A stretch of DNA of 64,000 nucleotides from Synechococcus sp. PROS-U-1 (GTDB lineage: Bacteria; Cyanobacteriota; Cyanobacteriia; PCC-6307; Cyanobiaceae), in contig NZ_CP047951.1 in NCBI RefSeq assembly GCF_014279755.1, positions 1,302,001 to 1,366,000 of the forward strand. Reading direction: 5' to 3'. Under the pieces are notes generated by a model. It saw only the letters and a list, made by a program, of their open reading frames with translations. It searched no databases and was not told the DNA's origin. Shown piece after piece: positions 8,063-12,922 of this stretch. Numbering within the stretch: the first letter of the stretch is position 1; each line of letters begins with the position of its first letter. A program made the position numbers and the translations under genes.

Positions 8063-8635
8063 TCAGGCTTTAGCAGAAGCTTCAGACCGCAGACGCCGCC
8101 AGCGGGCATAGAACTGGATCGACGCCGCCATGAACACCACCAGGGCAACGATGAACCAGGTCGCCGCGCTGGTGGGGAATTGGGTTTTAAACACCACCAG
8201 CATCACCACGATCACCAGCAGCAGGGTGGGCAGCTCATTCAGAGCCCGCAGCTGTTTTCCCGACCAGCCACAGGTGCCCGCATGAAGTTGGCCCATCAGC
8301 CGGTAACAGAACACGTGATAGGCCAGCAGGGCCGCCACAAAGGCAAGTTTCGCGTGCATCCAACCCTGCTGAAGCCAGGATGGCTGAGCCAACAGCAGGC
8401 CGATGGCCATCGACACAGCCACAACCATTCCGGGCGTGGTGATGATGTTGGCGAGACGTTTTTCCATCAAGGTGTATTGATCGCGGAACGGCTCCTGCAG
8501 TTCCGGCGCCAATTCCGCGGTTTCAACGTGATAGATGAAGAGACGCACCAGATAGAAGAGGCCCGCAAACCACACCACAACCCCAACGATGTGCAGGGTC
8601 TTGAACCAGAGGTAGGCCTCGGGCGAAAACGTCAT
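8063..8635 (-). CDS. hemJ: HemJ protoporphyrinogen IX oxidase
   Basis: A 190-residue four-helix membrane protein of the HemJ (UPF0093) family, the usual cyanobacterial enzyme oxidising protoporphyrinogen IX to protoporphyrin IX for haem and chlorophyll. The N-terminal helix has the conserved His of LHIVGVVVWFAGLFYLVRL, and the conserved lysine is in GWMHAKLAF. The start triplets read GTG-TTG-ATG; the ATG at 8635 is chosen because it sits closest to the conserved helix. It lies between a photolyase-family gene upstream and a PHP-domain gene one base downstream, all on the minus strand. Confidence 0.9.
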   Translation of the reverse strand: MTFSPEAYLWFKTLHIVGVVVWFAGLFYLVRLFIYHVETAELAPELQEPFRDQYTLMEKRLANIITTPGMVVAVSMAIGLLLAQPSWLQQGWMHAKLAFVAALLAYHVFCYRLMGQLHAGTCGWSGKQLRALNELPTLLLVIVVMLVVFKTQFPTSAATWFIVALVVFMAASIQFYARWRRLRSEASAKA

Positions 8636-8670
8636 CAACACATCTGATCTGAAGCGACCTTACGCAGGGT

Positions 8671-10158
8671 TCAGGTGAGCCCGTCAAGAAAATCGCTGGC
8701 CCGTCGCTGATGAGCCACGAGGACATCAGCACCCATGCGATCCAGGTTGCGGGCCATCATTGCCAGCCGGTACTGGCGGCGGAAGAAGTCCTGATGGCGG
8801 TGGATGAAGGTCCAAAACAATCCGTCCCAGGTGTCACACCACTCCCCCTTGCGGTAATCCGACATCTTGCGCACATAATTCGAGCCCGACAAATAGGGCT
8901 TGGTCGTGAAAAGCCCTCCATCGGCGAACTGACTCATGCCGTACACATTGGGCACCATCACCCAGTCGTAGGCATCCACAAACAGCTCCATGAACCAGGT
9001 GTAGATCCGGGTTGGATGGAATCCGCAGAGGAGCATCACATTGCCCAGGAGCATCAAGCGCTCGATGTGGTGGCAGTAGCCGGTTTCGAGGGCATGACGG
9101 ATGGCGTCATCAATGGGTGGCAGACCAGTGGATGCTGTGTAGAAAGCCGAAGGGATCGGCCGGTCATCGAAGCCCCAGAAATTGCCGTTGCGCATCTCCA
9201 CCCCATGGCGCCGGTACATCGCGGCCATGAATTCTCTCCAGCCCACGATCTGACGCAGAAACCCCTCGAGTGAATTCAAGGGAACATCGCCGCTCGCCGC
9301 TCGCTCCAGCGTGCGATCCAGCACCTGTTGTGGCGTCAGCAGCCCGATGTTCAGCATCGGTGTGAGCACGCTGTGCCACATCACCCGGTGCTGAGTGCTG
9401 ATCGCATCTTCATAGGCCCCGAACTCTCGCAGCCGTTGGTCGAGAAACGCATCCAGCCAGCGGGCAGCATCGGCATGGGTCACGGGGTAATGAAAAGAAT
9501 CCCAGCTGCCGATGCCAGCCACACCCTCACCGATGAGCTGCTGCCGAGCTTGATCAACGGCTGGCTTCGAGGGCTCCACTGGTGGATCAGGAACAACGAT
9601 GCCCTTTGGCAACTTCTTGCGGTTATCGGCATCAAAACTCCATCGACCACCCACGGGGCCACCGTCAGGCTCGATCAACAAATCCAGCCGCTTGCGCTGC
9701 ATCTCGTAAAAGCGACCCATCAAGGGCTTCTTGCCAGCAGCGAAGTGGTCATCAATCACCGCAGCTGGGGTGAGCAACATTGGGGTGGGGACGATCTCCA
9801 GGCCGCATTGATGCCGCGATGCGAAGGCTGAGATCCGTTTGGAGAGGATGTCGTCCACCGGATCCGCCAGATGAAAAGAGCGGTATCCCTGGGCGACGAA
9901 ATCAGCCAGGATTTCAAGCGTGTCCGCAGCCTGCCCCTGCAGAACGCGCAGAACGGTCAAGCCCTTGGCCTGGAGCATCTCGGCGTAGGCCGTCATCGAT
10001 GCTCGATGCAGGAGAAGACGCTGCCGATGCACCTGCATCGGCCAGGTGGAATCGGAACCGAAAAAGAGTGGATCCTCGATCAGGGCAACGGACCGTCCTG
10101 GACGAATCGCAGGATGGTGCTCAAACAGCTGATGGGGAAAAACGAGGCTGAGGTCCAC
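8671..10158 (-). CDS. Photolyase/cryptochrome-family protein (DPRP, FeS-BCP-related)
   Basis: A 495-residue deoxyribodipyrimidine photolyase-related protein, family of the bacterial (6-4) photolyase PhrB. The N-terminal antenna-type domain (FPHQLFEHHP) is followed by a helical FAD domain with GWREFMAAMY, the paired His at 363-364 (YCHHIERLMLLGN) and PNVYGMSQFADGG. In PhrB four cysteines hold a 4Fe-4S cluster; here the CxxC after the MSDY motif is replaced by RKGEWC, and only Cys441 seems to match one of the four. Cys362 is a separate cysteine. The protein therefore probably folds without the cluster. GTG start, 2 bases after the stop of the small gene at 10161, in one run with uvrC. Confidence 0.87.
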   Translation of the reverse strand: MDLSLVFPHQLFEHHPAIRPGRSVALIEDPLFFGSDSTWPMQVHRQRLLLHRASMTAYAEMLQAKGLTVLRVLQGQAADTLEILADFVAQGYRSFHLADPVDDILSKRISAFASRHQCGLEIVPTPMLLTPAAVIDDHFAAGKKPLMGRFYEMQRKRLDLLIEPDGGPVGGRWSFDADNRKKLPKGIVVPDPPVEPSKPAVDQARQQLIGEGVAGIGSWDSFHYPVTHADAARWLDAFLDQRLREFGAYEDAISTQHRVMWHSVLTPMLNIGLLTPQQVLDRTLERAASGDVPLNSLEGFLRQIVGWREFMAAMYRRHGVEMRNGNFWGFDDRPIPSAFYTASTGLPPIDDAIRHALETGYCHHIERLMLLGNVMLLCGFHPTRIYTWFMELFVDAYDWVMVPNVYGMSQFADGGLFTTKPYLSGSNYVRKMSDYRKGEWCDTWDGLFWTFIHRHQDFFRRQYRLAMMARNLDRMGADVLVAHQRRASDFLDGLT

Positions 10159-10160
10159 CG

Positions 10161-10448
10161 TCAGCTGTCCTCACCCGCAAGACGGCAGGCACGACGACCC
10201 AGAGCGGTGGCATAGGCCCGGTCCACGGGACCGGCCATGGGGCTCAGCTGGCCGGCCCGGCAATTCATCACCACCTTTTCGCGATGGCCCTGCTGGTCGT
10301 TGAGACGAAGCACCAACTGCCAATGATTCTTGGCACTTCGGGTGATGCCGTCGGCACACACAGGCCCTGTGCAGAGGCCAGGAGACGCCCAAACCGGGGT
10401 AGCGAATAGAAGCACTCCTGCCAGGGCCATGCAGAGATGACGGATCAT
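10161..10448 (-). CDS. Small exported protein with four cysteines, unknown function
   Basis: A 95-residue protein with a clear signal peptide: a basic start, a hydrophobic stretch to about residue 18 and a cleavage-like VWASP. The mature part has four cysteines (26, 31, 63 and 88), suggesting two disulfides outside the cytoplasm. I do not recognise the family. Its ATG overlaps the uvrC stop as ATGA, and its own stop is 2 bases before the photolyase-family GTG. It is therefore translated between two DNA-repair-type proteins although it is probably periplasmic or lumenal. Confidence 0.8.
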
Positions 10449-12430
10449 GCGGAGAGTTCCTGAGGCTGTTCTTCTAAAGCAGCCCCGTCAACACCGTCGT
10501 CCCCGTCCTCTGAAGGGTGGAAGAAGTCATGGATATCGCGGGCCAGCGAGGGGCCCACGCCAGGCGCTTTAGACAGGGTCTCGATCGATGCCAACTGGAT
10601 GGCATCAATCGAATGGAAATGGGCCAGAAGATCCTTCACCCGCTTCGGCCCAACCCCGGGGATGTCAGACAGGCGAGAGCGCTTCATTCGTTCTCCACGC
10701 TGCTGGCGGTGAAAAGTCACAGCAAAACGGTGGGCTTCATCCCGCAACCGGCGCAACAACACAACACCCAGCTGATCCGGTTCAGTCTCGAGCGGCTGGC
10801 TTTCCCCGGGGAGAAACACCTCTTCCCGCTGCTTGGCGAGGGAACAGACGTTCAAATCCTCATGCAGATCCAGCTCGCGAAGAGCCTCCATCACCGCGGA
10901 AAGCTGGCCTTTGCCGCCATCGATCATCACCACATCAGGCCAGTCGTTAAGACCGTCGGTCTGCAGCGCGCTGCCCCCTTTGTGTCGCAGTGCACCCACA
11001 TCCACCCCCTCAGCTTTCGCCCGAGCCCAACGTCGAAAACGGCGACGCATGATTTCCGCCATCGCCATGAAATCGTCGCTGTGGCCAGCTCGAATACTGC
11101 TGCTGCGGATTTTGTATTTGCGGTAGTGCTGCTTGGCGGGCAGTCCATCAATGAACACCACCTGAGATGCGACGGCATCGCTGCCCTGGATGTGGCTGAT
11201 GTCATACCCCTCGATCCGGCGCGGCGGGGTCGGTAACTCCAGCAGCTGCGCCAGATCCTCCGTCGCCAACGACTGCTTCTCCTGACCCTGCTTTGCACGG
11301 AGCAACTCAAACTCAGCATTGCGCTGAACCAGTTCGATCAGGTCAGCCTTTTGCTGGCGCTGCGGGCAGTGGATCTGCACACGACGCTCCCGTTGTTCCG
11401 ACAACCAGTCCTCCATCAGCGTCTGCTGGGGCAAAGCGTGTTGAACCAACAGCTCGGGGGGAATCTCAACGGAATCAACCTGGCTGTAGTGCTCTTCAAT
11501 CACGCGCTGCAGGATCAGGCCCGGCTCCAAACCGGACGCATCGGCGGTGTAGCCGAGACGTCCCACCAGCTTCCCGGCCCGCATCTGAAACAACTGGACG
11601 GCCGCCAGCCGCTCATCAAACGCAAGGGCCAGAACATCACGGCTCACGGAGGAGTCGGGCAGGCTCATCTTCTGGTCTGCGGTGAGCTGATCCAGACCCT
11701 GAAGTTGATCGCGAACCCGGGCTGCGGATTCGTAATCCATCCGCTCGGCATAACGCCCCATCTGCTCCTGAAGCAGCTGCTGCAACTCATCGCTGCGGCC
11801 CTGAAACACCATCGCCACCTTGCGGATGGTGCGGTGGTAGTCCTCAGAGCTGATTTTTTCCTGACAAACCCCCGGACAGCGGCCGATGTTGTAGTTGAGG
11901 CAGGTGCGATCGGGATACATCGGTCGTGGCCGCTGCCGCAGCGGGAACACGCGTTTCACCAGAAACAGCGTGCGGCGGAGAAGCCCAACATCCACATAGG
12001 GGCCGTAGAAGCGGTCCAGGGGACTGCGGAAACGACGGCGGCGGGTGATGAAAATCCGTGGGTAGGCCTCACTCCAAGTGATGCAGAGATAGGGATATTT
12101 CTTGTCGTCTTTGAGCAGCACATTGAAGTGCGGCTGATGGTTCTTGATCAGGTTGGATTCGAGGACGAGGGCTTCTGCCTCGCTGTCGGTCACGATGAAC
12201 TCGATCTCGCAGACCTGGCGCGTCATCAATCGGATCCGCGGCGACAGATCGTGGCGGCTGCGGAAATAGCTGCGCACCCGACTGCGCAACGACTTCGACT
12301 TGCCGACGTAGAGGATCCGGTCGTCACCGTCCCGCATCAAGTAACAACCCGGTTCAGCGGGAATGTCTTTCAGACGGCGTTCAAGACGATCGGGCTGCGT
12401 CAGCAGCGGTGCACCGGAGGCAGCATCCAC
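10445..12430 (-). CDS. uvrC: Excinuclease ABC subunit C
   Basis: UvrC makes the two incisions in nucleotide excision repair with UvrA and UvrB. The 661-residue protein is complete: a GIY-YIG nuclease domain at about residues 26-105 ([20 protein letters not shown]), a UVR motif ([12 protein letters not shown]), the C-terminal RNase H-like nuclease domain ([28 protein letters not shown]), and two helix-hairpin-helix motifs ([18 protein letters not shown]). The start is a GTG 9 bases after the flavin reductase stop. Downstream, the 4-base overlap links it to the exported Cys protein and the photolyase-family gene. Confidence 0.97.
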
Positions 12431-12439
12431 CAGGCCAGC

Positions 12440-12922
12440 TCAGCCGCCGTAGTTCCAGCCGGTGCTGGCCAGATTCAGTGCATCACCATCAGCAATCAGC
12501 CGGGCTGTTTTCACTTCCCCGACAAAAACCGTGTGGTCACCATGCTTGATCGATCCAACAAGTTCACACTCGACTCCACCGATGGCGTCAGTGAGGAGAG
12601 GTAGCCCGAGCTCTCCCTCTTCAAATGGTGCCGCTTCAAAGCGACCACCTAGGGCCTTCTGGGGCTTGAAGAACACAGCAGCCAGATCTTTCTGGTCGGC
12701 CCGCAGCACATTCAGGGAAAACTTGCCAGTGGCTTCGATGATGGCGTGACTGCTGCTGTCAGCACGAACGCCCATGACCACCAGCGGTGGTTCGAAGGAT
12801 CCCTGTGTCACCCAACTGGCGGTAAAACCATTGACCTCATCACCGTCCCGCACGCCGCAAATGAAGAGTCCATGGGGGATCTTGCGGAGCAATACCTTCT
12901 TTGCGTCAGCGTCGAGGCTCAT
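12440..12922 (-). CDS. Flavin reductase-like domain protein
   Basis: A 160-residue flavin reductase-like (FMN-binding split barrel) protein. Typical features are the N-terminal KIPHGLFICGV, GFTASWVTQGSFEPPLVVMGV, KFSLNVLR and HTVFVGEV segments. It resembles the flavin reductase domain at the C-terminus of cyanobacterial flavodiiron proteins, but here it stands alone. It probably reduces FMN or FAD with NAD(P)H; the partner is unknown. It is the first gene of a minus-strand run into uvrC (9-base gap) and diverges from coaD, with 69 bases between starts that must hold both promoters. Confidence 0.85.
   Translation of the reverse strand: MSLDADAKKVLLRKIPHGLFICGVRDGDEVNGFTASWVTQGSFEPPLVVMGVRADSSSHAIIEATGKFSLNVLRADQKDLAAVFFKPQKALGGRFEAAPFEEGELGLPLLTDAIGGVECELVGSIKHGDHTVFVGEVKTARLIADGDALNLASTGWNYGG

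Follow-up and report, generated by a model that had tools for sequence, protein, structure and literature searches.

Phr2 of Synechococcus sp. PROS-U-1, a probable (6-4)-type photolyase from a cluster-free subfamily with a Pro/Trp/Trp signature

The gene at positions 8671 to 10158 of the window (the whole stretch of 64,000 nucleotides of the Synechococcus sp. PROS-U-1 genome that was analysed) very probably encodes Phr2, a cluster-free (PromaPL/subgroup M) prokaryotic (6-4)-type photolyase that would work without iron and repair UV photoproducts. The protein would bind FAD and take up blue or UV-A light, either directly or via an antenna in its N-terminal domain, and the repair, most likely of (6-4) photoproducts, would employ the His-His pair and the tyrosines of PhrB. 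The [4Fe-4S] cluster, which PhrB needs for folding, would be replaced by a shorter loop together with the set Pro348, Trp440 and Trp444, so that the fold may stand without iron.

Cluster-free photolyases, including the marine Synechococcus counterpart, are already described, and their existence is not new. In the excerpts of the literature used here, 7% of 464 homologs have no Tyr460 and are without the cluster cysteines too (Graf 2015, PMC4619345). These cysteines are likewise absent from PromaPL and the subgroup M members (20 of 110 sequences; PMC9178010). Several such orthologs have led to the suggestion that the cluster is perhaps not required by all members, and what it does in PhrB-type enzymes is described as not yet known (PMC12082625). 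Phr2 is reported to correspond to PromaPL, and most Phr2 proteins to be without the cluster cysteines (Haney et al. 2022, PMC9426592). A literature search under the wording '6-4 photolyase' 'without iron-sulfur cluster' found no paper. The cluster-free family is a natural control for the function of [4Fe-4S] in PhrB-type enzymes, and its Pro/Trp/Trp set names the residues to swap. The question of substrate touches on how (6-4) lesions are removed in cyanobacteria that abound in the ocean, and by which enzyme.

The gene and its neighbourhood

The genes considered, all on the minus strand, are as follows.

8063..8641, minus strand: UPF0093 protein, directly downstream of phr2 (Pfam, synteny)
8671..10158, minus strand: Phr2, cluster-free PhrB-type photolyase of 495 aa with a GTG start (ORF translation, Pfam, PDB relatives, model)
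10161..10448, minus strand: small ORF of 95 aa between uvrC and phr2 (ORF; signal-peptide-like start by eye)
10445..12430, minus strand: uvrC, excinuclease subunit, upstream and in the same direction (Pfam)
12440..12922, minus strand: flavin reductase-like protein, upstream of uvrC (Pfam PF01613, 125 bits)

The photolyase ORF matches the DPRP domain of Pfam with 152 bits. Its score for FAD_binding_7 is 26.6 bits against a cut-off of 27, and 27.6 bits when the whole genome is searched. Eight PDB sequences match it at E ≤ 0.001, and these are PhrB-type photolyases or CryB. The DPRP N-terminal domain, the predicted PhrB-like fold of the whole chain, and the His-His pair and tyrosines for lesion binding and repair place Phr2 in the DPRP/PhrB family. 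The genome (2.58 Mb, a single contig) encodes four FAD_binding_7 proteins and one DPRP protein, and its photolyase complement agrees with the marine Synechococcus set phr1 to phr4, as far as that set is given in the excerpts of PMC9426592.

A broken gene was considered and ruled out, since the reading frame is uninterrupted and a match at E ≤ 0.001 exists in 32 of 34 genomes of the genus, the two without one being 77% and 98% complete. A phage or viral origin was also rejected, as no match to the gene was found in the viral_contigs set (six exact peptide patterns) or in phages.

The site of phr2 downstream of uvrC is that reported for marine Synechococcus, and the gene belongs to the same subfamily as the one amplified in that work (PMC9426592, in excerpt). 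Among 100 loci examined, uvrC adjoins phr2 in six, five of them of the window's family and one a Synechococcus MAG. The 95-aa ORF between the two genes starts within an overlap with the uvrC stop and ends 2 bases before phr2; it has several cysteines and no Pfam match, and an ORF like it is readable in two other loci (L107 and L106). The UPF0093 protein downstream is presumably HemJ-like. The flavin reductase-like gene could supply reduced flavin; a tblastn search found no such gene beside phr2 in L091, L093 or L110.

Cluster ligand positions in Phr2

The first-pass annotation had described a photolyase-family protein without Fe-S ligands, and this is borne out by the alignment with PhrB (Pro348, no CxxC, Asp442) and by an alignment of 181 relatives: the four ligand cysteines are absent from Phr2. 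The motifs that it had named (YCHHIERL with His363-His364, MSDYRKGEWC, Pro348 and Cys441) are read directly from the translation with the right coordinates, the gene being on the minus strand. The codons concerned are listed below.

9115..9117, minus strand: Pro348, where PhrB has its first cluster ligand (Cys350; PhrB alignment, column counts)
9067..9072, minus strand: His363-His364, His364 being PhrB His366 (translation, PhrB alignment; His in 181 of 181 rows)
8893..8895, minus strand: Tyr422 (PhrB Tyr424, lesion binding; Tyr in 181 of 181 rows; role from Graf 2015, PMC4619345)
8851..8856, minus strand: junction Tyr435/Arg436, where the ten-residue CxxC loop is absent (alignments)
8827..8841, minus strand: Trp440-Cys441-Asp442-Thr443-Trp444, with Asp442 at the fourth ligand column (alignment)

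The cluster ligands of PhrB include Cys350, Cys438 and Cys441, which are the ones that were mutated (Graf 2015, PMC4619345). In the HMMER alignment with PhrB (4dja), Pro348 stands opposite Cys350 and the CxxC stretch has no counterpart, the loop region of Phr2 being ten residues shorter than that of PhrB. When residues are counted back without gaps from the shared Trp449, the fourth PhrB ligand, which we take to be numbered Cys454, faces Asp442 of Phr2 and not Cys441. Phr2 is therefore without the four [4Fe-4S] cysteines by which the FeS-BCP subtype is defined, and it groups with other cluster-free proteins, as expected of the cluster-free subgroup M/PromaPL/Phr2; this placement is derived from the cluster-free relatives collected here. 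To judge from these residues, Phr2 would contain no iron.

The proposal that Cys441 is a plausible remaining ligand was rejected. This residue lies one column off and is not fully conserved among the cluster-free rows (Cys in only 105 of 123), which makes a ligand role improbable. That Phr2 binds a cluster or another metal via Cys362, Cys378 and Cys441 is accordingly considered very improbable. Cys441 does lie near the old site and is shared by most cluster-free rows, and Cys378 is nearly invariant in two alignments of relatives, but the Cys441 column holds other residues in 18 of the 123 rows (Gln 13, Thr 2, and Ser, Glu and Ala one each), the Cys362 column is Ala or Asn in four relatives (L058, L102, L103 and L057), and no conserved set of four cysteines is seen in the two alignments.

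Ligand state among the relatives

Column counts are based on a MAFFT alignment of 181 relatives. All four cysteines are present in 58 rows and none in 123. Partial sets are absent from these 181 rows, which are a part of the DPRP matches only and say nothing on partial sets elsewhere. The sampling favoured cluster-free proteins, in that 79 of the 181 rows come from a scan with patterns taken from such proteins, and the ratio of 123 to 58 is therefore no measure of abundance. The scan gave at least 591 matching stretches, 589 of these encoding relatives, and the best 80 were kept; twenty further regions, mostly low-scoring ones, were picked by hand. Three loci without a match to Phr2 (L001 to L003), one with fragments (L096) and one with an open frame of 340 aa (L168) were left out, as were the duplicates L004 and L005 (the same gene as L006) and L030 (the same gene as L106). 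Many rows are close kin: the 123 cluster-free rows fall to 73 at 80% identity, and the 58 cluster-type rows to 21 at 68%.

The two groups are cleanly separated at the ligand columns. In the cluster-type rows, Cys occupies the column of Pro348 (ligand 1) and that of residue 442 (ligand 4) in 58 of 58, and Ala the column of residue 441 in 56. In the cluster-free rows, Pro348 is present in 122 of 123, and Trp440 and Trp444 in every one. The stretch corresponding to residues 431 to 449 has exactly 19 residues in all 123 cluster-free rows, and 29 residues in 57 of the 58 cluster-type rows (24 in the remaining one). Four cluster-free rows read WCSI, the Cys of which sits at the 441 column and not at that of ligand 4; the ligand-4 flag raised on them by a loose pattern is thus an artefact. 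At the level of sequence, Pro348/Trp440/Trp444 is a clean replacement signature of the cluster-free subfamily and not a product of chance.

A second sample consisted of nine plasmid records from the 20 matches listed, of 89 matching. Eight of the nine loci have all four cysteines, and the lone cluster-free one (L192, Persicobacter) carries the Pro/Trp/Trp signature. On the Cupriavidus plasmid L199, a cluster-type photolyase gene shares four bases with an annotated gene for the excinuclease Cho, which we take to be a UvrC homologue.

Distribution and history of the subfamily

A tree was derived from 94 rows (73 cluster-free and 21 cluster-type), with the ligand columns left out, by an IQ-TREE quick search with SH-aLRT support only. 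The cluster-free rows form one side of a single branch (SH-aLRT 100), which corresponds to one state change; long branches are seen for L104 and L077. Phr2 is an ordinary member of this large cluster-free subfamily, and its absence of a cluster is no recent loss; the word 'lost' in the first-pass annotation, taken as an event in this genome, does not hold. The root was set by hand between the two groups, and therefore the tree gives no direction of change. Phr4, a more distant photolyase of the same genome, has cysteines at the matching columns, and this one outgroup protein favours an ancient presence of the cluster, which would later have been lost.

Cluster-free relatives occur in records, many of them metagenome bins, titled Verrucomicrobiota, Bacteroidota, Planctomycetota, Nitrospirota, Balneolota, Ignavibacteriota, Pseudomonadota, Actinomycetota and Cyanobacteriota. 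The 17 rows of marine Synechococcus and Prochlorococcus (support 89) fall together with six rows of Verrucomicrobiota (support 99). Apart from these, a second cluster-free group (support 100) is made up of five rows that belong to other genera of the window's family, and in four genera of that family (g8, g10, g14 and g17) some species have the cluster-type protein and others the cluster-free one. Gene transfer is the simplest reading of this mixed distribution; a literature search joining photolyase, iron-sulfur cluster, Verrucomicrobia and horizontal gene transfer found no paper. One contig titled as a Rhodobacteraceae MAG (L122) carries a gene 99.4% identical to that of a Prochlorococcus row, and it is probably mis-binned.

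Predicted structure and repair residues

The AlphaFold model of Phr2, based on 22 sequences, has a PhrB-type fold with a mean pLDDT of 90.4; confidence is lower in residues 411 to 420 (mean 64). The model fits ten PhrB-type entries (8ijy, 9hnk, 4dja and others) over 473 to 485 residues, with Z between 39.8 and 42.3 and rmsd between 2.2 and 2.6. The next row is the Thermus photolyase, with Z of 26.6. Among the PhrB-type structures in the PDB sequence matches and these fold matches, there is no entry whose title marks it as cluster-free. The top match, tied with the rows after it, is SePhrB of Synechococcus elongatus (8ijy, an FeS-BCP with 8-HDF; Z 42.3), which has a Met near FAD N5 as Phr2 does, but differs in having the four cysteines. 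PhrB of Agrobacterium (4dja) is matched over 482 residues (rmsd 2.3, Z 41.3), and Phr2 has equivalents of its His-His pair, Tyr424, Tyr430 and Trp390. In contrast, the ligands are absent from Phr2, the loop is ten residues shorter, Trp342 is replaced by Tyr, and Glu403 by Met.

Fourteen residues are invariant in all 181 rows: D176, N179, R180, D251, Q303, W307, R308, E309, H363, H364, W388, K420, Y422 and Y428. By the PhrB alignment, His366 maps to H364, Tyr424 to Y422 and Tyr430 to Y428. In PhrB, repair is abolished by H366A, lesion binding and repair are both lost in Y424F, and 30% of repair is kept in Y430F, as reported in the portions of Graf 2015 (PMC4619345) cited here. The same work reports that PhrB cysteine mutants, in which the cluster should be missing, either failed to be expressed or were insoluble. 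A cluster-free enzyme must therefore support its roof in another way. The shortened loop and the residues Pro348, Trp440 and Trp444 are the obvious candidates for such compensation, in which the two tryptophans would have a structural role.

Function and substrate

The counterpart of phr2 in Synechococcus RS9916 (RS9916_30014) has been studied in cells, and the window gene is known from its sequence. According to the excerpted results of PMC9426592, disruption of phr2 in RS9916 lowers survival about 1,000-fold under UV-B and 20- to 30-fold under UV-C, and phr2 expressed in E. coli raises UV-B survival nearly 10-fold in the light, but not in the dark. Two phr2 primers of that study, which when reverse-complemented read WDGLFWS and ASQFLDGLN-stop, match one locus of our set (L109) with 0 mismatches. 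The L109 protein is 65% identical to Phr2 of the window; both are cluster-free and bear the P/W/W signature, and both genes lie in the order flavin reductase - uvrC - phr2 - UPF0093 - PHP. The Prochlorococcus rows, 47 to 49% identical to Phr2, are likewise cluster-free with the signature; PromaPL of Prochlorococcus marinus is described as a cluster-free (6-4) photolyase.

Since the primer-matched cluster-free counterpart confers UV protection, light-dependent in E. coli, the new role that the first-pass annotation had offered as one outcome is not needed. The same results bear on whether Phr2 is a cryptochrome-like light sensor without repair, as CryB of R. sphaeroides, which we regard as highly unlikely. 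CryB is a close structural relative of the Phr2 model and regulates photosynthesis genes (PMC9178010, in excerpt), but the counterpart protects Synechococcus and, in the light, an E. coli without its own photolyase (PMC9426592), and phr2 sits behind uvrC.

The substrate deserves closer consideration. In the excerpts of PMC9426592, cluster-free Phr2 is proposed to act on CPDs, and Phr4 and Phr5, which have the cysteines, on (6-4) lesions. In line with this, Phr2 might be a CPD photolyase derived from a (6-4) enzyme at the loss of the cluster, since the cluster is present in those Phr2-like (6-4) enzymes that have been characterised and absent from the Phr2 form, and since the UV-B phenotype of the RS9916 phr2 mutant is strong. 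Such a change of substrate appears unlikely, however. None of the 123 cluster-free rows departs from His364, Tyr422 and Tyr428, the residues linked with (6-4) repair in PhrB. At the column of PhrB His366, Phr2 is the only one of the genome's four photolyase-family proteins with His; Asn stands there in Phr3 and in the cluster-cysteine-bearing Phr4, and Phe in Phr1 (Phr1, Phr3 and Phr4 are named here by gene location). The sequence evidence therefore runs against the printed inference. PromaPL, moreover, is named a (6-4) photolyase in two citing papers (PMC9426592 and PMC9178010, both in excerpt; the original is Ma et al. 2019). Short photolyase-like proteins are reported to combine CPD photolyase activity with the cluster (PMC9649867, in excerpt), and in our own reading Phr4 is one of them.

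A specificity of Phr2 for (6-4) lesions rather than CPDs would agree with these residues, and the printed step from cluster absence to CPD repair looks wrong, a judgement on residues and not on activity. The fuller scenario has, in our estimate, a slightly better than even chance of being right. The cluster would have given way, in a single event and as a whole, to a Pro/Trp/Trp plug and the deletion of ten residues, and the resulting cluster-free scaffold would have spread among phyla; the form in marine picocyanobacteria groups with that of Verrucomicrobiota. Phr2 would then be the real (6-4) photolyase of marine Synechococcus, and Phr4/Phr5 would be of CPD type, the reverse of what is printed.

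Flavin site, electron chain and antenna

Met401, at the FAD N5 position, is found in 123 of 123 cluster-free rows, and Met in 54 of 58 cluster-type rows; most members that fall outside groups A, B and G are reported to have this residue (PMC9178010, in excerpt). The electron chain of PhrB is altered in Phr2, where Trp342 corresponds to Tyr340, Tyr391 and Tyr395 are replaced by Phe, and Trp388 is kept, so that photoreduction may differ from that of PhrB. In the same source, the intact PhrB chain is said to be lacking throughout subgroups Chl, HC, Ac and M.

An 8-HDF antenna is assumed for picocyanobacterial photolyases in PMC9426592 (in excerpt). No CofG above the curated cut-off was found in the PROS-U-1 genome (best 35.6 bits versus 213), a further difference from SePhrB, and the strain may therefore not make 8-HDF. 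This antenna was not adopted for Phr2; DMRL synthase is present in the genome.

It may be added that PMC9426592, in the portions cited, treats the Phr2-like protein of V. cholerae in two ways, as being without the cysteines in the discussion and with them in the results and a figure legend. In our alignment, the solved V. cholerae protein (7ykn) has the CxxC.
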